The notes under the pieces are model-generated. The model was not told the DNA's origin. It made no database searches and was given only the letters and a program-made list of their open reading frames with translations. The position numbers were made by a program, and so were the translations under genes. A stretch of 47,201 nt of DNA from Chloroflexota bacterium (GTDB lineage Bacteria > Chloroflexota > Anaerolineae > Anaerolineales > Villigracilaceae). The stretch covers positions 1 through 47,201 of the forward strand of contig QMIW01000025.1 in the NCBI GenBank assembly GCA_024434165.1. The letters run 5' to 3'. Shown here in pieces: positions 494-47,201 of the stretch. Each line of letters starts with the position of its first letter. Position 1 is the first letter of the stretch.

Positions 494-520
494 TTTTTCC
501 TTTGACGTTGGAGGAAGTGC

Positions 521-597
521 CATCCACGAATGGAGCACGAATAAACGAATACGGGCGGGCATTCGAATATTCGTGGTTGTCATTCGTGGATGGTTTT
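521..597. repeat. Solo unit of the ATTCGTGG palindromic repeat
   Basis: Contains the hallmarks of the arrays at 11.8-13.0 kb: CCACGAAT, AAACGAAT, a GGGCGGGCATTCG stretch, ATTCGTGGT and ATTCGTGGATGG. It is a diverged single unit. It lies upstream of the preferred start of the gene at 101-493 and creates an apparent N-terminal extension in that frame. Confidence 0.7.
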
Positions 598-646
598 CAT
601 TTTGTGTTGCGTTCCAGAAATTTGCGTCCATTTTGGATTACGCCTG

Positions 647-10516: not shown

Positions 10517-11635
10517 TCAAACGCGCGGTTCGGATGCCGCCCCTGCGAGTTGACCGCACCCCGCGTTGATGTCAATCCCGCGCCGCATGCGGATCGTGCA
10601 TGGAATCCCCGCCTGCTCCAGCGTTTGCTTGAAAAGGTCCGCCCGCTGACGGCTCGCCGCCTGCCCCTCGTAGCCTGTGGTGGGGTTGAGCGGAATCGCG
10701 TTGACGTGACACAGCAGTCCCTTCAGCCGCGCGGCGAGTTTCAGCGCCACTTCCGGCGTGTCGTTGACTCCGTGAATCAGCGCCCACTCGAAGGTCACGC
10801 GGCGGCGCGTTTTTTCCACGTAGTATTTGCAGGCTTCGAGGACTTCGTCAATTTTGTATCGTTTATTGACCGGCATGATGGCGAGACGCTCGTCATCCTC
10901 CGCGGCGTGGAGCGAGATGGCAAGGTTGACCTGCCGCTTCTCGTCCGCAAAGCGTTTGATCTGCGGAACCAAGCCCACCGTGGAAATGGTCATGCGCCGC
11001 GCGCCGAAGTTGAATCCCTGCGCGTCGTTGAGCCGGTCAACCGCCGCCATAGTATTCTCGTAGTTGTGGAACGGTTCGCCCATGCCCATGAAGACGATGT
11101 TGGTGACGGCTTCGTCCCGCTCTTTCAGCATCCGCGCATAAAACATAACCTGCGCCGCGATTTCGCCGCTGGTGAGGTGGCGTTTGAAGCCCATCTGCCC
11201 GGTGGCGCAGAAGACGCATCCCATCGCGCAGCCCGCCTGGGTGGAGATGCACAGGGTTCTTCGGACCCCCCTCCGGCTCCCCCCAAATTCTCTGAATTTG
11301 GGGGGAGTGTCCCGAAGGGACGAGGGGGGCTCATCCGCCGGATCCCCATACCGCATCAACACCGCTTCGACCAGATTCCCGTCCGAAAGTTGAAACAACG
11401 TCTTGCGCGTGGACTTGTCGGAGGAATCGAGGTACGTTCTCACCGTGAATGGGGTGAAGGTGATTTCCTCCGCGAGTCTTTTGCGCAGGGAATTGGGAAG
11501 ATTGGAGAACTGCTCGGGTGAATCGTACAGATGACGGTATAACCCCTGCCAGATCTGCTTGGCGCGGTAGGCGGGTTCCTTCCATTTTTGGAGGAGGCTT
11601 TCGAGGGCGGGGAAGTCGAGGTCGTAGATTAACAT
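10517..11635 (-). CDS. rlmN: 23S rRNA (adenine-2503-C2)-methyltransferase RlmN, with in-frame palindromic insert
   Basis: Radical SAM enzyme that methylates A2503 of 23S rRNA and A37 of some tRNAs. I start it at the ATG at 11635 (372 residues, MLIYDLDFPALESL). The frame stays open far upstream, but only through the ATTCGTGG repeat array. The radical SAM cluster motif CAMGCVFC has cysteines at 136, 140 and 143. The FMGMGEP, NLAISLHA and IPLNP segments match RlmN. Residues 103-124 are encoded by a palindromic element (11266-11329) inserted just before the conserved RRTLCIS strand. The frame is kept, so the enzyme may still work. No ribosome-binding site is evident at this ATG. Confidence 0.92.
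   Translation of the reverse strand: MLIYDLDFPALESLLQKWKEPAYRAKQIWQGLYRHLYDSPEQFSNLPNSLRKRLAEEITFTPFTVRTYLDSSDKSTRKTLFQLSDGNLVEAVLMRYGDPADEPPSSLRDTPPKFREFGGSRRGVRRTLCISTQAGCAMGCVFCATGQMGFKRHLTSGEIAAQVMFYARMLKERDEAVTNIVFMGMGEPFHNYENTMAAVDRLNDAQGFNFGARRMTISTVGLVPQIKRFADEKRQVNLAISLHAAEDDERLAIMPVNKRYKIDEVLEACKYYVEKTRRRVTFEWALIHGVNDTPEVALKLAARLKGLLCHVNAIPLNPTTGYEGQAASRQRADLFKQTLEQAGIPCTIRMRRGIDINAGCGQLAGAASEPRV
11266..11329. repeat. Palindromic element inserted in frame inside rlmN
   Basis: Outer arms CCCCCCTC (11266-11273) and GAGGGGGG (11322-11329). An inner perfect 14-bp palindrome sits at 11277-11307 (CTCCCCCCAAATTC and GAATTTGGGGGGAG), plus a small hairpin GTCCC-GAA-GGGAC at 11309-11321. It adds about 22 codons without a stop or frame change. 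The same kind of sequence would normally be intergenic. Confidence 0.8.
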
Positions 11636-11776: not shown

Positions 11777-12127
11777 AAACGAATGCAGGCGGACATTCGC
11801 GAATTCGTGGTCATATTCGTGGACGATATTTTCGTCACCGTCCACGAATGCACGAATGGCTTCACGAGCAAACGAACGCGCGTGGACGGTATTTCCGTCA
11901 CCGTCCACGAATGGCTTCACGAGCAAATGAACGCAGGCGGACATTCGTGAATTCGTGGTCGTATTCGTGGACGGTATTTTCGTCACCGTCCACGAATGCA
12001 CGAATGGCTTCACGAGCAAACGAACGCGCGTGGACGGTATTTCCGTCACCGTCCACGAATGTACGAATGGTTTCACGAATAAACGAATGCGCGCGGACAG
12101 GCATTCATTTGCTCGCGGTCATATTCA
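11777..12127. repeat. ATTCGTGG palindromic repeat array, distal (between GxxExxY gene and rlmN)
   Basis: Units begin AAACGAA/AAATGAA at 11777, 11870, 11925, 12018 and 12081, giving spacings of 93, 55, 93 and 63 bases, with a decayed last unit. Long units carry GAATTCGTGGTC followed by a hairpin with perfect arms ATTCGTGGACGGT and ACCGTCCACGAAT around ATTTTCGTC. Short units keep GTGGACGGT and ACCGTCCAC. Each unit ends CACGAGC or CACGAAT. Few stop codons occur in any frame, so long false reading frames cross it on both strands. This explains the 11636-12135 gap. Confidence 0.92.
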
Positions 12128-12135
12128 GCGATCTT

Positions 12136-12573
12136 TCACTTCTTTATGGCATTATCACGGCCGGTTCGCTGAACAGGCTTCATGTCTTTTCCGGGAAAGA
12201 CCCGACGGTATTCTAATCTTCTACGCCCAAAATTGAAAAGCAGACCCACAGATGCGCCTGTGGCTTTCAAGTAGTTGATGACCTGCGCCAGTTCATCATT
12301 TGTCAATTGATGACCGAATGCCTTGATCTCCACGACCACCTTTTGTTCCGGGAACAAATCCAGGTAAAAAGTTGCCGCCCGTTCCCCTTCAAACTCCACA
12401 CGCACTTCGTATTGACGATACGGCTCGATGCCCGCGTGATCGAGTTTTATCGCCAGGGCATTTTCATACACTTCCTCCTTGAAACCATGCCCAATTTCAT
12501 TGTGGACTTCCATTGCCAGCCCGATGAGTTTGTAAGTCAGGTCATTGCCGGTTGAATCAATTACGAGGGGCAT
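12136..12573 (-). CDS. GxxExxY protein, PD-(D/E)XK nuclease-like
   Basis: 145 residues. Start chosen at the ATG at 12573, preceded by GGAGG; upstream in-frame sequence is repeat array. The family signature appears as GFKEEVY. A PD-(D/E)XK-like core follows: YLDLFPEQKVVVEIKA gives the Asp and the ExK pair. A conserved C-terminal QVINYLKATGASVGLLFNFG segment completes the family pattern (PDDEXK_3, GxxExxY). Biochemical function of this family is not established. Here the gene sits between two arrays of the same palindromic repeat on its own strand, downstream of the NB-ARC/TPR gene. A link between protein and repeats is possible, by analogy with REP-associated transposase-like proteins, but is only inference. 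Confidence 0.88.
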   Translation of the reverse strand: MPLVIDSTGNDLTYKLIGLAMEVHNEIGHGFKEEVYENALAIKLDHAGIEPYRQYEVRVEFEGERAATFYLDLFPEQKVVVEIKAFGHQLTNDELAQVINYLKATGASVGLLFNFGRRRLEYRRVFPGKDMKPVQRTGRDNAIKK

Positions 12574-12625
12574 TTTTCCTCCGCTCTTTTCGAGTATTTC
12601 AATTGTAGTCGAAAGAAACAGATAC

Positions 12626-13054
12626 CGTCCACGAATGTACGAATTTACCACGAGCAAACGAACGCAGGCGGACATTCGCGAATTCGTGGTCATATTCGTG
12701 GACGGTATTTTCGTCACCGTCCACGAATGTACGAATTTACCACGAATAAACGAACGCGCGCGGACATTCGTGGACGGTGTTTTCGCCACCGTCCACGAAT
12801 GTACGAATTTACCACGAATAAACGAACGCAGGCGGACATTCATGAATTCGTGGTCCTATTCGTGGATGGTATTTTCGCCACCGTCCACGAATGCACGAAT
12901 TTACCACGAATAAACGAACGCGCGCGGACATTCATGAATTCGTGGTCCTATTCGTGGATGGTATTTTCGCCACCGTCCACGAATGTACGAATTTACCACG
13001 AATAAACGAACGCGCGCGGATATTCGTGAATTCGTGGTCCTATTCGTGGACGGT
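12626..13054. repeat. ATTCGTGG palindromic repeat array, proximal (between NB-ARC/TPR gene and GxxExxY gene)
   Basis: Units begin AAACGAACGC at 12656, 12748, 12820, 12912 and 13004, with spacings 92, 72, 92 and 92 and a last partial unit. A partial unit also precedes 12656. The 72-base unit lacks the 20-base GAATTCGTGG...TATTCGTGG part. Each unit has a hairpin with CGTGGACGGT or CGTGGATGGT against ACCGTCCACG. Units end TTTACCACGAAT, unlike the distal array's GCTTCACGAGC. The array starts on the base next to the stop codon of the NB-ARC/TPR gene. This explains the 12574-13054 gap. Confidence 0.93.
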
Positions 13055-15604
13055 TCATTCCTCCAGCGAATCCAAGTTCTCTTGCACGGTTTTGATATTG
13101 GGATGGTCGGGCGGCAGGAATTTTTTCAATATAACGAGCGCACGTTCGAACATTTCGCGCGCGGCGCCTGGGTCGCCCAGGTCTTGCAGAACCGAGACGA
13201 GGTTGTTGACAAGCGTAGCGACATTGGGATGGTCGGGACCGAAGGCGGCTTCGTCAATCTTCAAGGCGCGTTCGAACATTTCGCGCGCGGCAGGCAAATC
13301 GCCCAAGTCTTGCAGAACCAAGCCGAGGTTGTTGACGCGGATGGCGGCATTGGGATGGTCGGGACCGAAGGCGGCTTCGTCAATCTTCAAGGCGCGTTCG
13401 TACATTTCGCGCGCGGCGCCTAGGTCGCCCAGGTCTTGCAGAACCGAGCCGAGGTTGTTGACATCAGTGGCAACTTCGGGATGGTCAGGACCGAAGGCGG
13501 CTTCGTCAATCTTCAAGGCGCGTTCGAACATTTCGCGCGCGGCACCTGGGTCGCCCAAGTCTTGCAGAACCGAGCCGAGGTTGTTGACAAGCGTAGCGAC
13601 ATTGGGATGGTCGGGACCGAAGGCGGCTTCGTCAATCTTCAAGGCGCGTTCGTACATTTCGCGCGCGGCGCCTAGGTCGCCCAGGTCTTTCAGAACCAAG
13701 CCGAGGTTGTTGACATCCCTGGCGACCTTGGGATGGTCGGGACCAAAGGCGGCTTCGTCAATCTTCAAAGAGCGTTCGAACATTTCGCGCGCGGCGCCTG
13801 GATCGCCCAGGTCTTGCAGAACCGCGCCGAGATTGTTGACGATGCTAGCAACATTGGAATGATTTTCCCCAAGATGGTTTTCAAAAATCTTCAAGGCGCG
13901 TTCGTACATTTCGCGCGCGGCAGGCAAATCGCCCAAGTCTTGCAGAACCGAGCCGAGGTTGTTGACATCAGTGGCGACGTTGGGATGGTCGGGACCAAAG
14001 GCGGCTTCGTCAATCTTCAAAGAGCGTTCGAATGCTTGACGTGCGCCTGCATAGTCGGCGATCTCCTTCAAGTGATAGCCGTAATTATTCCACAATGTCC
14101 CTGCCGATTTGAGGCTTGCCATTCCCGCATGAGCGGCGAGGACGGGCAGATGTCCGCGCAGGGGAGTGAATCTCGCGGGCAAGCCTGTTTGGATTGCTTC
14201 ATTTGATAATATTCCAATGGCACCCGCCAGCGTTTCGAGCAGTGTCTTGTCATCTTTTGCCAAATGACACGCGTACTCCGCCAGCAGGGGATGCATCGCG
14301 GGCAAACCGCCTTCGTCTTTTGTCAGCAAGCCCAAGCCGTAAAGCAGAGTCAACGCCTCGTCGCAGGTTTCGGGGGAGATTTCGAGCGTCTTTTCGAAAA
14401 TCTCCAGCGGGATGGGCGTGTTCGGCGCAAGAAAGCCGGAGAGCATGAAAATTTTTTGGGCGGTTTCCTCGGCGGTCGAGTAGGTCGGGGCGTCTGCCGA
14501 AACTGTATCGAGACCACCGCGAGTTTCAGATTTCGATTCCTTCGCACTCGACCCGCGTGAAAGTCCCTGCCACGAGAGCGCGAAGGTGCGCTGCAAGTCC
14601 AAATCATGCTTGGTGGCGGCGGGCAGGTCGGCGCGCCAGTCTTTCATCGAGGGATGCTCCAGCGCCTGCCTGGCTTGTTTCAGGTATTCCGCGATGCTCA
14701 GGCGCGGATGTCCGTTCAGGTAACGGCTGGCGAGTTCCAAACCCAGCGGCAGATGACCGAGCCGCTCCGCCAGGGTTTTGAGGTCGTCCCCGCTGTCCTT
14801 CCTCCCTGACATCGAGCGTTCGAGGTAGGCAAGGCTTTCCTCTTCGGTGAAGACATTCAATGGGATGGAGGACAAGCCTGTTGCGGGAGTCCAGTCTGTA
14901 CGGCGCGATGTGACCAACACGCGGATGTTCGAGTGCCGCAGTCTTGCCAGCACATCGCCCGCAAGCGACGGCTCTTCAAAGTTATCGAGAATCACCAGTC
15001 GCGGACCGTCCGCCTTCCAGGCGTTCAGCGTCAGCGCAACCTGCGAAGGCTGGTCGTCGGGGTAACCCGCCGGGAACATTTGCCGTCCACAGGCGGCAAT
15101 CTCCGCCTCGAGTTGCATCGGGTCCGCCAAATTCAGCCAGTGCACCCCGCGGAAATACCTCCCGTAACGATGACCGAATTCAATGGCGAGCTGTGTCTTG
15201 CCCAGTCCACCCATCCCTGTCACGGCTTGGGTGATGACCACTGCCTCCCCTCTCCCGCCCTTGGGAGAGGGGTTGGGGGTGAGGGCATCCGCCAGTTTTT
15301 TCATGACCGCTTCGCGCCCGGTGAAAAGCGGGTTCGGCGGGAAGGGCAGGTGCGAGCCGGGCGGCAGGTCGCCCGCGGGCGGGATTTCGTCAGTTGAAAG
15401 GACAGGGGGTTTTGACGGTTTTGAAACTTTCCTCTCTTGCGCATTCAGAAGGTTTTTATCTCCAATGACGAGATTCGAGCCTTCCACGTTTTTCGTAATG
15501 ACAACCACGCCTCCCTTCTGCGCAATGATCTTTGGCTCCTGCTTTTTCCTGACAGTCTGCCTTGTTTTCTTTTTGCCGCTGGCGTCGTTTGGTTTCTTCG
15601 TCAT
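13055..15604 (-). CDS. NB-ARC NTPase with tetratricopeptide sensor domain
   Basis: 849-residue STAND-type protein. The first 60 residues are basic and then beta-rich (VVITKNVEGSNLVIGDKN near 34-51), like the motif in the NACHT and ROCO proteins. The NB-ARC core has Walker A GMGGLGKTQ at 130-138, Walker B RLVILDNFE at 202-210 and VLVTSRR near 229-235. Residues 532-825 are seven near-identical 42-residue TPR units of the kinesin-light-chain type (DEAAFGPDHPNVAT..VNNLG). Residues 107-121 are encoded by an inserted palindromic repeat just before Walker A. No toxic effector domain is recognised at the N-terminus. A sensing or defence role fits the family; it could equally be regulatory. Confidence 0.88.
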   Translation of the reverse strand: MTKKPNDASGKKKTRQTVRKKQEPKIIAQKGGVVVITKNVEGSNLVIGDKNLLNAQERKVSKPSKPPVLSTDEIPPAGDLPPGSHLPFPPNPLFTGREAVMKKLADALTPNPSPKGGRGEAVVITQAVTGMGGLGKTQLAIEFGHRYGRYFRGVHWLNLADPMQLEAEIAACGRQMFPAGYPDDQPSQVALTLNAWKADGPRLVILDNFEEPSLAGDVLARLRHSNIRVLVTSRRTDWTPATGLSSIPLNVFTEEESLAYLERSMSGRKDSGDDLKTLAERLGHLPLGLELASRYLNGHPRLSIAEYLKQARQALEHPSMKDWRADLPAATKHDLDLQRTFALSWQGLSRGSSAKESKSETRGGLDTVSADAPTYSTAEETAQKIFMLSGFLAPNTPIPLEIFEKTLEISPETCDEALTLLYGLGLLTKDEGGLPAMHPLLAEYACHLAKDDKTLLETLAGAIGILSNEAIQTGLPARFTPLRGHLPVLAAHAGMASLKSAGTLWNNYGYHLKEIADYAGARQAFERSLKIDEAAFGPDHPNVATDVNNLGSVLQDLGDLPAAREMYERALKIFENHLGENHSNVASIVNNLGAVLQDLGDPGAAREMFERSLKIDEAAFGPDHPKVARDVNNLGLVLKDLGDLGAAREMYERALKIDEAAFGPDHPNVATLVNNLGSVLQDLGDPGAAREMFERALKIDEAAFGPDHPEVATDVNNLGSVLQDLGDLGAAREMYERALKIDEAAFGPDHPNAAIRVNNLGLVLQDLGDLPAAREMFERALKIDEAAFGPDHPNVATLVNNLVSVLQDLGDPGAAREMFERALVILKKFLPPDHPNIKTVQENLDSLEE
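13130..14011 (-). repeat. 126-bp tandem repeats encoding TPR units
   Basis: Seven consecutive 126-bp units within the NB-ARC/TPR gene, very similar at DNA level (recurring TCTTGCAGAACC, GAGGTTGTTGAC, GGATGGTCGGGACC on the plus strand). The uniformity suggests recent duplication or gene conversion. Confidence 0.9.
15246..15286. repeat. Palindromic repeat, CCCTCTCCC family, copy 2, inside the NB-ARC gene
   Basis: Arms CCCCTCTCCC and GGGAGAGGGG (15247-15272) with a GGTTGGGGGTGAGGGC tail, the same family as 15-50. It is read in frame as ALTPNPSPKGGRGE, a tell-tale peptide of this repeat when it falls in genes. Confidence 0.85.
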
Positions 15605-21894: not shown

Positions 21895-22027
21895 GGCTCT
21901 CCCGTAACGAACGGGAAAACGTCTTACCACAAAGGACACCCAATACACAAAGGGGAAAAGAGGACTGTTTTTCGGGATTTCTCCTTTGTGTTTAAGATTG
22001 GTTTTCCCGTTAAAAACGGTAGAACCG
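21895..22027. mobile_element. MITE-like element with GGCTCT ends, copy B
   Basis: Starts GGCTCTCCCGTAACGAACGG and ends AACGGTAGAACCG. The interior TTACCACAAAGGACACCCAA and GGGATTTCTCCTTTGTG match copy A at 8824-8996. It lies between the lipoprotein and dCMP deaminase genes. Confidence 0.8.
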
Positions 22028-23890: not shown

Positions 23891-23999
23891 TTTATCGGAA
23901 TTAACTTTTTCGCCACGAAGTTCACGAAGCAGCACGAATTTCTTTCGCTTTTTCGTGAACATTCATGTTCTTCGTGGATTCCCGCCTTATTTCCGATAA
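23891..23999. repeat. Palindromic repeat with TTATCGGAA ends
   Basis: Ends TTATCGGAA (23891-23899) and TTCCGATAA (23991-23999). The interior has CGCCACGAAGTTCACGAAG and TTCGTGAACATTC...TTCTTCGTGG, related in style to the ATTCGTGG family. It lies between two convergent genes and is not coding. Confidence 0.6.
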
Positions 24000-25929: not shown

Positions 25930-26150
25930 CTCATGGTTTTTGCCACCCTCTGCCTTTTGGTTCCCCCGGTTGCCCGCGGGATGTTGTCGGCAGAGATTTA
26001 TCCTGGAGGGAAAGATTGACGGGTAATGGCGTACCCGGAGGGCTTCCGCTGATCCTTCGATTTTCAGGCGCCGGTGGCGTCCTTAACTCCATTTCGCAAT
26101 GGAGAACCCTCTTCCTCGTCAACCCCGCAAAGTGCGGGGTCCATGCGCTG
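25930..26150 (-). ncRNA. glmS ribozyme (glucosamine-6-phosphate activated)
   Basis: In the glmS leader on the minus strand. The cleavage-site core AGCGC lies at 26149-26145. P2 is a perfect CCCCGC/GCGGGG hairpin (26123-26139). The near-invariant GUUGACGAGG follows at about 26124-26114. A second conserved block AUCGA...AGCGGAAGCCCUC lies at 26062-26038. Compared with the classical form, about 42 bases (26063-26104) stand between GAGGGUU and AUCGA, including a perfect hairpin CTCCATT-TCGC-AATGGAG (26087-26104). The 3' boundary is approximate. Self-cleavage between 26149 and 26148 is expected by homology. Confidence 0.82.
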
Positions 26151-26200
26151 TCTTTCCCGTTTGTGAATGTCCGCTGCACCTCCTTTCGATGACGGGCAGG

Positions 26201-44873: not shown

Positions 44874-47201
44874 TTACGCAGGCAGCGTATTGATCAACTT
44901 GATGACCGTCATCGCCAGTTCCAGCACAGGCTTGCCGATCTCGTTCAGGTTCCTGGCGGCTTGAGCGAGACTTTCCACCGTGACCTTGACCCTTTCCATC
45001 TTGGGCTTGGATTTCCTTGCCTCGCTTTGCAGGCTTTCCAACTCCTCCCGAACATCTTCCGTATGCTCGGATACCACGGCATTTTTCAGCAGGATTTCGG
45101 TGGTTTTCATCAATTCAGCCAGCGCATTTTGGACTTCGGCAGGGAAGGTGTTGAAACTGTTTTGCATGGATTGGGTGATTGTGTTGCCTTCTCCCAAATT
45201 GAAAGCGCTGCCTTTCATCTCGCCGATGTTGATGTTTGTAATTTTGACGGATCTATCCGGGTATTCGTCTTCCATAAATTTTTCATCACTCATCCCATCC
45301 CGCATTCGGCGTCCTTTTTCGCGTTCCGCCAAGTCCATGTAACCGTTGAGCAATTCCCGAACGGACAAATCCATCACCCCACCCTTCGCTGTTACGGTGA
45401 TCTTATCCCTGCGGCTGCCTTCATAGACCAGCAGATCGTCAAACGAGATGCAGACATCGGGATATTCCGCCGGGAAGATGAATGCTTTGGGCTTGGGGTC
45501 GAAGGGTTTGTGGATCTCGTCGAAATGCCCGCGTAAAAAGGACAGCAGGTCGCGGCGGGTGTTTTCCCTGCCGGTTACTTGAATCGTGAGCCGCTTGGTG
45601 TACAGGTTGGCTCTGACGAGGGCGCGGTTGCCGTCCTTCTCCAGGTGGACCCCGGTGCGCCAGACGTGGTCCTCTTTGATCCACTGATGAGTGCGGACAA
45701 TGAAGCGGGTGATGACGTTCTCAGGCAATTCGGGATATTCATACTCGAAAGTCAACGCGGAATCCCAGGACCCGGTTTCGGGTTCGCTTTTGTCCATCAG
45801 GTTCGGAAGCCAGAAGGTGGAGTCGTCGGCTGGGTAGCAAAGTTCGAATCGTTTCATCAAGTCTACGATCAGGCGGCAGTGATGATGCGCGTAGTCGCTT
45901 GAGGGCAAGACCTCGTGGACCATGTCCATCGTCAGCCTGCCCTTGGTGTCCTTGCGAATCTTTTCGCTGTTGATGACGCGGTAGACGCCATTCGTCACCC
46001 AGTTGGGATTCAGGATGCCGACCTCGCTGATGGGTTGACCCTTTTCATCCTTGAAGTGAAAGACTGTTCCGAGGTCGTGCAGAAGCGCAAGCAGGTTGTT
46101 CTGATCGCGCTTGTCTTTGACGCTATTCTCTTCGCACAATTCCACATAGCGTTCGAGGGAGATGATGTTTTTGCGTTGTTTTTCCTCATCCATCGCCTCC
46201 TTGACCGCCAGATAACTGACCGGCAGCTCGACACGGACCTGCGGCAATGCTCCCACTTGTTCGACGATGGCGGCGCGCAGCTCTGCGATTCGGAGGTCGT
46301 CCTGCGCGGAGGTCTCGATCACGGCTTTCAGATTTGGATATTCGCGTTTCAAACGCTTTTCGGGGATATCGAGGGTATGCTGGTTCTTATCCGCTTTGTT
46401 GCCGACCAGGATGACCGGCGAATCCTTGCCGTACAAGGCGATGGTTCTCAGCCAGTATTCGAGGCGGTTCTGTTCCTCGGTATCGCGGACGTTGATGACC
46501 AGCAAATACACGCACCTTGCCGAGAAGAAGAACGGGTGCGTGGCATGCATGTGTTCCTGCCCGCCGAAATCCCAAATTTGGGCAGTGTTCTCGCCCGCGG
46601 GCAGGCTGTGCATTTCCACGGTGATGGTGCTGTCTTCGGCGGCGTTGAAACTGCCGTCTTTGAGGCGGTTGACCAGGGAGGTTTTCCCGACCTGAGGTTG
46701 ACCGACCACGAGGACGCGCGCCTCGCCCAATGGATGCCCGCCTTCTTCCCAGAGTTTTTTATAGAATTCCAGAATACGCCGGGCATCGCCGCCTATATTT
46801 TTATCGCCTAACAACTCTGCAGGCAGGGCAATCGAGAGTGGAGTTTCGTGCAAATTCAACCATTTGAGGGAGTGCAGGTTAAGTATTTCTTTGGGCAGGC
46901 TGGCGAGCCCGTTGCGGGAAAGGTTCAGTAAGGTGAGGTTTTGGAGTTGACCGATCTCTTTAGGCAGGCTGGCGAGTTGGTTCGAGAAAAGGTTCAGTGA
47001 GATGAGGTTTTGGAGTTGACCGATCTCTTTAGGCAGGCTGGCGAGCCCGTTGCCGGAAAGGTTCAGTGAGGTGAGGTTTTGGAGTTGACCGATCTCTTTA
47101 GGCAGGCTGGCGAGTTGGTTATCGGAAAGGCTCAGTGAGGTGAGGTTTTGGAGTTGACCGATCTCTTTAGGCAGGCTGGCGAGTTTATTGTAGGAAAGGT
47201 C
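44874..47201 (-). CDS. LRR-Roc-COR (ROCO) GTPase, partial
   Basis: The gene enters from beyond the right edge, so the N-terminus is missing. The visible part has at least four leucine-rich repeats of 23 residues (LASLPKEIGQLQNLTSLNLS) encoded by 46860-47201. A Roc GTPase follows: G1 GQPQVGKTS, G3 DFGGQ, G4 NKAD. Then come the COR region (PVSYLAVKEAM through LNPNWVTNGVYRVI) and a C-terminal part with a beta motif INIGEMKGSAFNLGEGN. The last 100 residues are predicted helical and coiled. ROCO proteins sense ligands and signal by dimerisation. No clear effector domain is seen. A leucine codon at 46859 is not a start: the repeat frame continues without a break. Confidence 0.9.
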   Translation of the reverse strand, partial: DLSYNKLASLPKEIGQLQNLTSLSLSDNQLASLPKEIGQLQNLTSLNLSGNGLASLPKEIGQLQNLISLNLFSNQLASLPKEIGQLQNLTLLNLSRNGLASLPKEILNLHSLKWLNLHETPLSIALPAELLGDKNIGGDARRILEFYKKLWEEGGHPLGEARVLVVGQPQVGKTSLVNRLKDGSFNAAEDSTITVEMHSLPAGENTAQIWDFGGQEHMHATHPFFFSARCVYLLVINVRDTEEQNRLEYWLRTIALYGKDSPVILVGNKADKNQHTLDIPEKRLKREYPNLKAVIETSAQDDLRIAELRAAIVEQVGALPQVRVELPVSYLAVKEAMDEEKQRKNIISLERYVELCEENSVKDKRDQNNLLALLHDLGTVFHFKDEKGQPISEVGILNPNWVTNGVYRVINSEKIRKDTKGRLTMDMVHEVLPSSDYAHHHCRLIVDLMKRFELCYPADDSTFWLPNLMDKSEPETGSWDSALTFEYEYPELPENVITRFIVRTHQWIKEDHVWRTGVHLEKDGNRALVRANLYTKRLTIQVTGRENTRRDLLSFLRGHFDEIHKPFDPKPKAFIFPAEYPDVCISFDDLLVYEGSRRDKITVTAKGGVMDLSVRELLNGYMDLAEREKGRRMRDGMSDEKFMEDEYPDRSVKITNINIGEMKGSAFNLGEGNTITQSMQNSFNTFPAEVQNALAELMKTTEILLKNAVVSEHTEDVREELESLQSEARKSKPKMERVKVTVESLAQAARNLNEIGKPVLELAMTVIKLINTLPA
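46880..47201 (-). repeat. 69-bp tandem repeats encoding LRR units
   Basis: Units of 69 bases, recurring as GAGGTTTTGGAGTTGACCGA and TAGGCAGGCTGGCGAG on the plus strand, nearly identical across four to five copies and continuing past the window edge. Confidence 0.92.

Follow-up and report, generated by a model that had tools for sequence, protein, structure and literature searches.

A small gene of the GxxExxY family and the repeats on both sides of it probably constitute one minimal mobile element, a Cas4/Hjc-like nuclease together with its cognate end repeats. The gene lies in the window (the whole analysed stretch of 47,201 nt), which is part of a 4.4-Mb genome; among the best 80 of 437 relatives, the nearest protein relatives are from Anaerolineae MAGs. 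Comparison across genomes confirmed the arrangement and showed it to be broader than first seen, a module of gene and repeats that occurs in several phyla and whose repeats are specific to the clade.

The gene, its product and the enclosing arrays

Tandem Repeats Finder and profile matches confirmed the arrangement proposed from the letters alone, two arrays of one unit that enclose a small PD-(D/E)XK-like gene (Table 1). On the 3′ side of the gene the program reported repeats at 11777-12061 (period 148) and 11966-12098 (period 63), and on the 5′ side at 12694-12841 (period 72), 12766-13054 (period 92) and 12624-12933 (period 164), with 90-96% matches. With base 13054 this array borders directly on the stop codon (13055-13057) of the NB-ARC/TPR gene, just as had been claimed, and the different tails described for the two arrays are visible in the sequence. 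The TPR part of this neighbouring gene contains seven 126-bp tandem repeats (13143-14032), and elements of the type found on contig C116 of the same genome likewise sit behind TPR-like gene ends. A further tandem repeat of 69 bp with 4.5 copies is located at the end of the window (46888-47200), and we take it to resemble leucine-rich-repeat coding sequence.

Table 1. Features of the window discussed in the text
Feature	Position	Strand	Remarks
GxxExxY gene, PD-(D/E)XK nuclease-like, 145 aa	12136..12573	minus	TIGR04256 and PF13366 profile matches
Array 5′ of the gene, some four or five units 72-92 bp long	12622..13054		Tandem Repeats Finder
Array 3′ of the gene, some four or five units that differ in length	11777..12098		Tandem Repeats Finder
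NB-ARC/TPR gene, element behind its stop codon	13055..15604	minus	Context, outside the element
rlmN-like gene, downstream	10517..11635	minus	Context, anchor of the empty-site comparison; name presumed from its sequence
Solo unit of the CACGAAT/ATTCGTG type, no gene	519..598		
Solo unit, CTTCGTG class	23893..23999		Word flanking two other GxxExxY genes of the same genome (C114, C102)
Possible solo unit, CTTTGTG class	21926..22000		Weak

The protein scored 115.9 bits against TIGR04256 (cut-off 35) and 115 bits against PF13366 (PDDEXK_3; cut-off 22) in profile searches. At E 0.01 PF13366 was the sole match, with no transposase domain and no match to PF04754 (Rpn/transposase_31). A longer frame reaching 12843 was rejected as read-through of the array, and the alignments of close relatives begin at the first residue of the protein encoded by 12136-12573. 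In 60 aligned GxxExxY sequences G28, E33, Y36, D72, E82, Q97 and Y101 are invariant and K84 is nearly so (90% or more). Judged from these residues, the PD-(D/E)XK active site is intact in the window protein, a predicted nuclease. The predicted structure (mean pLDDT 87) is closest to the Cas4 protein SSO0001 (4ic1; Z 10.1, with an rmsd of 5.7 across 116 residues), and Hjc resolvases resemble it more weakly (1gef with Z 7.1, others below; a Z under 8 is weak). Foldseek with this model gave a best E of 1.5e-3 and no hit passing 1e-3, and a sequence search of solved structures gave no credible match. The window protein shares with Cas4/RecB-type nucleases and Hjc the fold and the active-site layout E, D, ExK, QxxxY, of which QxxxY is typical of RecB/Cas4 nucleases. 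Cas4 has Fe-S cysteines, whereas the window protein contains no cysteine. A search of the related protein of locus L075 against phages gave no match at 1e-5.

The repeat unit is an imperfect palindrome with up to six half-sites CACGAAT/ATTCGTG. Its plan, derived from 56 distinct unit strings of this and related genomes (overlapping matches are included, so that independent units are fewer), is RCCRTC, CACGAAT, four or five bases, CACGAAT, often a third weaker site, a loop, and the mirror image. Half-sites are mostly spaced by 8-12 bp, about one helical turn: 8, 11 or 12 bp for ATTCGTG, and mostly 9-10 bp for the better-sampled other words. The original prediction had described the unit as a hairpin; the spacers between the half-sites are not complementary (0.353 versus 0.363 for the null, in a small sample of 15 equal-length spacer pairs). 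Covariation in the stem, as a stem kept by selection would show, was not found in the small sample of units, and the R of CCRTC varies independently on the two arms. We therefore favour, from this small sample of sequences, that the half-sites would be recognised in duplex DNA or in cruciform arms.

Units are also found without a gene. The single related unit predicted near 521 is real, and as single-stranded DNA it gives a much better fold than 200 shuffled sequences (z −7.7). The loosely related unit near 23891 exists as well, but it is a doublet of CTTCGTG and so of another word class; the window thus contains solo units of two classes of word, and for each class this genome has a gene. In the whole genome the inverted half-site pattern gave 41 forward and 39 reverse matches, which for the most part are identical sites counted on each strand, and its backwards control gave 0. 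Doublets of CTTCGTG are likewise dispersed (12 forward and 11 reverse matches, 0 for the backwards pattern). An RNA element was considered and rejected: no Rfam family reached its gathering score in the arrays, and the whole-window scan yielded only a glmS ribozyme (25938-26160, minus strand, 42.5 bits, cut-off 37). At L260 (G000:C61, about 189200-189690) five tandem units lie about 101-113 bp apart with a common spacer that is not part of the unit, and the ORFs listed there include no GxxExxY gene.

Clade-specific words beside GxxExxY genes

For the best 80 of the 437 relatives, i.e., those nearest the window protein, we compared the density of CACGAA/TTCGTG close to the gene and far from it. 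The stretches up to 600 bp from the gene, 89,295 bp in total, contained 430 copies of the word, and those more than 1.5 kb away, 482,227 bp in total, contained 243, a roughly tenfold difference in density (4.82 versus 0.50 per kb). Three control words showed no comparable rise (0.84 near and 0.76 far, 0.22 and 0.40, 0.49 and 0.70 per kb). A k-mer ranking with no preset word placed ATTCGTGG, CACGAATG and CACGAATA at the top in the 32 loci L031-L062 with 51- to 83-fold enrichment; in the 48 loci L063-L110 the top k-mer was AATCTGCG (34-fold), which was present in 16 of them.

We then scored clusters, defined as one 7-mer of the form ATYNGYG present three or more times in 150 bp, a form that was chosen after looking at the data. 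Clusters were found beside 28 of the 30 window-clade genes (those in L031-L063 with a profile E under 1e-50, and the one in the window), so that orthologues without nearby repeats are the exception, compared with 3 far windows (0.7%); six control patterns reached 0-2 of the 30. Genes outside the clade had such clusters in 20 of 128 cases versus 1.3% of far windows, and 15 control forms on the same genes gave 9 for CTYNGYG, 5 for ANYTGYG, 3 for TTYNGYG and 0-1 for the rest. With the form [AC]TYNGYG, also chosen after seeing the data, and 175 genes (matches spanning 90 or more profile positions, loci with two GxxExxY genes entering once per gene), 87 of 330 near flanks and 26 of 1077 far windows had a cluster. 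Twelve permuted templates scored 0-19 of 330 near the genes, and the two that scored 13 and 19 can match shifted copies of true half-sites. These pooled frequencies are no unbiased census, since L242-L261 were chosen because doublets lie in them or next to them, and most loci from the order and genus for high rank. No cluster under the set rule was present at 103 of the 175 genes. In a motif-free test, the sharing of 8-mers between the two 400-bp flanks was higher than in all control windows at some Chloroflexota loci and at few others; when compared with first-order Markov shuffles, the top 7-mer stood out at 39 of 158 genes.

In the genome of the window, clusters are present at four of six GxxExxY genes (two matches on C144 being taken as one broken gene), with ATTCGTG at the window gene, CTTCGTG at two and CTTCGCG at one, there on a single side. 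Two other families were considered as partners of the repeats and rejected: all three Y1 matches of this genome, candidates for a RAYT, are without units, and of its 11 genes for four-helix-bundle proteins (23S IVS, TIGR02436) one has a cluster, of another word, while CACGAA occurs at these loci only as stray single hits. Nine GxxExxY loci from plasmid records, fetched later, give partial independent support, as they fit only in part. Two (L345, L355) pass the fixed rule of three words in 120 bp, and a looser, post-hoc reading finds one word inverted on both sides in five of nine; in L345, L346, L348 and L354 it faces inwards (L346 having just one copy on each side), and in L355 either side of the gene bears a complete palindrome. 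An inverted repeat beat all 200 shuffles in three of the nine (L345, L355 and, with another word, L358).

Words of the form [AC]TYNGYG fall by clade on a tree of the 175 proteins, which was built from 122 columns and has many weak forks. The window clade comprises 34 rows, 30 of them labelled under the stricter 120-bp rule (L051, L013, L057 and L064 are unlabelled). Outside this clade the nearest labelled relative had the same word in 22 of 42 cases, compared with a mean of 3.8 and a maximum of 14 in 2000 shuffles. As 12 of the 22 matching pairs have a flanking protein in common, the test was rerun with neighbours that share none, and 16 of 42 still matched (null mean 3.8, maximum 12 in 2000). 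One genome (G006) has a GxxExxY gene flanked on both sides by ATTCGTG and another flanked by CTCCGTG. Its arrays are direct 10-bp repeats with 57 doublet hits, and most of the fetched arrays have no adjoining gene; this pattern, together with the flanked gene, would fit an action in trans. At L197 (G079:C14:58000-67000) three GxxExxY matches lie within 6 kb, and two copies stand beside ATCTGTG and ATTCGTG.

Presence of the repeats also follows presence of the gene. GxxExxY genes were found in 76 of the 121 genomes drawn from the order and CACGAAT doublets in 28, of which 26 have such a gene (Fisher p about 1e-4, uncorrected for kinship); arrays are thus not equally frequent without the gene, and G068 and G069 are the genomes with doublets alone. 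Among 57 genomes of the genus, the median number of doublets was 16 in the eight with a window-clade gene and 2 in the 49 without it (Mann-Whitney p 6e-4, uncorrected for kinship, and inflated by one of the eight, G153, which is discussed below). Doublets without a window-clade gene were found in G167 (70), G133 (16), G149 (11) and G087 (10). One 1.8-Mb, 59%-complete genome (G046) has 33 GxxExxY matches, possibly a burst or fragments.

Occupied sites, empty sites and the spread of the repeats

The 32 window-clade loci and the window itself contain only two sets that share neighbours, the window with L031, and L034 with L036, L038, L040 and L041. The 33 loci therefore represent at most 28 contexts; this is a maximum, since the sequence covered includes no upstream ORF for seven loci and no downstream ORF for three. 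The site between the rlmN-like and the NB-ARC/TPR gene is filled in the genome of the window and in G126 (presumably CFX11), with different unit numbers. Neither gene nor array is present at this site in five other genomes of the genus, where the intervals measure 76, 150, 180, 192 and 595 bp, including about 40 bp of matched gene ends. Contig C116 of the window's own genome carries a unit without the gene where relatives have gene and units; both of its flanks match L034, and one flank each matches L036, L038, L040 and L041. Loss of the gene and a unit that was never given one would both fit.

Compact cassettes are seen in culturable bacteria. Sphingomonas parapaucimobilis has one between fabD and fabG. 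By contrast, a start codon comes within about 30-40 bp after fabD in S. paeninsulae, Rhizobium indigoferae and a Shinella (fabG is annotated in the Rhizobium record and was assigned by DNA similarity in S. paeninsulae and Shinella). In Bacteroides finegoldii a cassette lies directly behind radA, and its inverted ends match at 27 of 30 positions. Only 13 bp separate radA and the next gene in Parabacteroides distasonis, and Phocaeicola massiliensis has a longer stretch behind radA.

The word is present on both sides within 400 bp in 54 of 72 clustered genes. Of these 54 loci, 21 have nearest half-sites that face one another with the gene between them, 16 have nearest half-sites that point away, as parts of complete units, and 17 are mixed. 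From outer half-site to outer half-site the elements measure 470-1022 bp (50 loci), and the six bases outside the two ends agree at 3.38 positions compared with 2.59 in within-word shuffles (0 of 5000; 50 loci). In 39 of the 54 the outermost half-site lies −20 to +26 bp relative to the stop codon of an ORF on the same strand, a count that has no random control; selection against harm may contribute to this placement. A target duplication was not seen by eye in the printed units and cassettes, a comparison that includes no strain-level empty site, and no excision product was found. The many contexts, the gene-free rlmN sites and the compact cassettes indicate that gene and repeats move together. 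Units are also scattered over many places where there is no GxxExxY gene.

Other causes account for some of the spread of the repeats. In G153, which counts among the eight genomes of the genus that have the gene, seven of eight fetched doublet places (27 hits in all) lie inside a MITE-like element with the ends CAGCAATTCCAAATCT, and in G133 all eight fetched places (16 hits) lie inside an element with the ends TAGGACTTACGCA. Since the fetched doublets sit inside other short elements, we ascribe the copy number in these two genomes to hitch-hiking. The G153 element (L305-L312) is interspersed and roughly 190 bp long, with the CACGAAT unit in its middle, a repeat riding in a repeat. The G133 element (L317-L324) is roughly 150 bp long, has at least one TAGGACTTACGCA end in eight of eight loci, and contains half-sites resembling CACGAAT/ATTCGCG. 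The arrays, moreover, arise partly from duplication that includes pieces of neighbouring genes, and unit number differs between orthologous sites. At L313 and L314 (G127:C78) units are repeated together with the 3′ end of a gene, presumably resembling the tail of a type I restriction specificity subunit.

A candidate transposition mechanism and its alternatives

The element that we consider probable would have clusters of 7-bp half-sites ([AC]TYNGYG; here ATTCGTG) as inverted repeats at its ends and a Cas4/Hjc-like PD-(D/E)XK nuclease as its sole cargo. The protein would bind its own word at both ends and cut or nick there, and host repair or recombination would copy the element elsewhere, frequently to a position immediately after a stop codon within a co-directional run of genes. 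A gene-less version of arm, loop and arm, the solo unit, would be copied likewise. If flanking units recombine with each other, the gene may be deleted so that a solo unit remains, or units may be multiplied into arrays.

The repeats could instead be passive patches of homology, the gene being moved by homologous recombination or transformation while the nuclease acts elsewhere, e.g., on cruciforms. We regard this as unlikely, yet it has several observations on its side: units are duplicated with neighbouring gene pieces (L285 included), orthologous sites differ in unit number, no target duplication was seen, and the fold also resembles Holliday junction resolvases. Passive movement alone leaves unexplained why a clade-specific word recurs at unrelated sites and why the two ends match beyond the class consensus. 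Still less likely is a homing-like process, in which the nuclease would cut solo units and repair would copy the gene in, as for homing endonuclease genes. The gene lies between complete units in 16 of the 54 two-sided loci and C116 has a unit where relatives have the gene, as homing would predict, but at 21 loci the nearest half-sites face across the gene as in a transposon, and the relatives examined have no unit to home into at their fabD-fabG and radA sites.

A role of the repeats as local protein-binding or RNA elements (operator, terminator or mRNA stabiliser) with no part in movement is very improbable. Their position close behind same-strand stop codons and the good folding of one solo unit would agree with it; against it stand the units at many places without a GxxExxY gene, the presence or absence at orthologous sites, the stem covariation not found in the small sample, and the arrays free of any Rfam family at gathering score. 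Finally, accessory genes collect in permissive genomic places, but a mere gathering of genes and repeats at such hot-spots or by chance is the least probable explanation of all, given that clusters accompany one of 11 four-helix-bundle genes and none of three Y1 transposases in the same genome and that the word matches the protein clade also where flanks are unrelated.

The proposed element has parallels among known systems. REPs associated with RAYTs are described, in the part of the source used, as short extragenic repeats in inverted pairs with matching clusters beside the gene, and several REP types can occur per genome, each beside its own RAYT gene with further units elsewhere (PMC3116915). 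REPs lie mainly downstream of coding regions, RAYT genes are flanked by REPs or terminal inverted repeats, and CGTC-tagged REPs have no dedicated transposase, according to the excerpt of PMC3733652. The window-type gene similarly has cognate inverted repeats beside it and dispersed in the genome. In contrast to the RAYT, a Y1 (HUH) transposase (PF01797), the enzyme here is a PD-(D/E)XK protein (PF13366), and the arms consist of several 7-bp half-sites. The comparison with REP and RAYT made in the original prediction thus holds in its logic and is extended by the co-inheritance of word and protein, but it does not cover that part of the repeat spread which has other causes. Insertion sequences and MITEs resemble the element in their cassettes of arm, gene and inverted arm and in their short gene-less derivatives; the GxxExxY gene, however, has no known transposase domain, no target duplication was found, and the ends of the element consist of clustered half-sites whose word is specific to the clade. 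Judged by sequence, the element would work like RAYT/REP or IS/MITE with another enzyme, and the enzyme that defines either group is not the one it carries.

Among PD-(D/E)XK proteins, the Rpn family (YhgA-like, PF04754) is thought to spread horizontally, and for its members in E. coli nuclease activity and promotion of RecA-independent recombination were shown (PMC5350276, in part). Rpn is a different Pfam family, and the same portion of that paper makes no mention of cognate flanking repeats. One gene scored as GxxExxY adjoins a reverse transcriptase and is called cas4 by another program, as reported in a section of PMC8934634. The open-licence PubMed Central papers searched give no role for GxxExxY, PDDEXK_3, PF13366 or TIGR04256 genes and contain no description of PDDEXK_3 tied to repeats or of such a gene-repeat module.

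More tentatively, and with somewhat less than even confidence, we propose a superfamily of minimal bacterial transposons, undescribed in the literature searched, in which a lone PD-(D/E)XK nuclease would be the mobility enzyme, each clade would have its own [AC]TYNGYG word, and gene-less derivatives would be a large source of short repeats (ATTCGTG, CTTCGTG, CTCTGTG, ATCTGCG and others) in many bacterial genomes. If GxxExxY genes are the partners of these repeats, a gene family and a class of repeats, both common and both unnamed, would explain each other, and the code of word by clade would allow the family's DNA specificity to be tested directly in vitro. The cassettes of Bacteroides and Sphingomonas provide culturable models.
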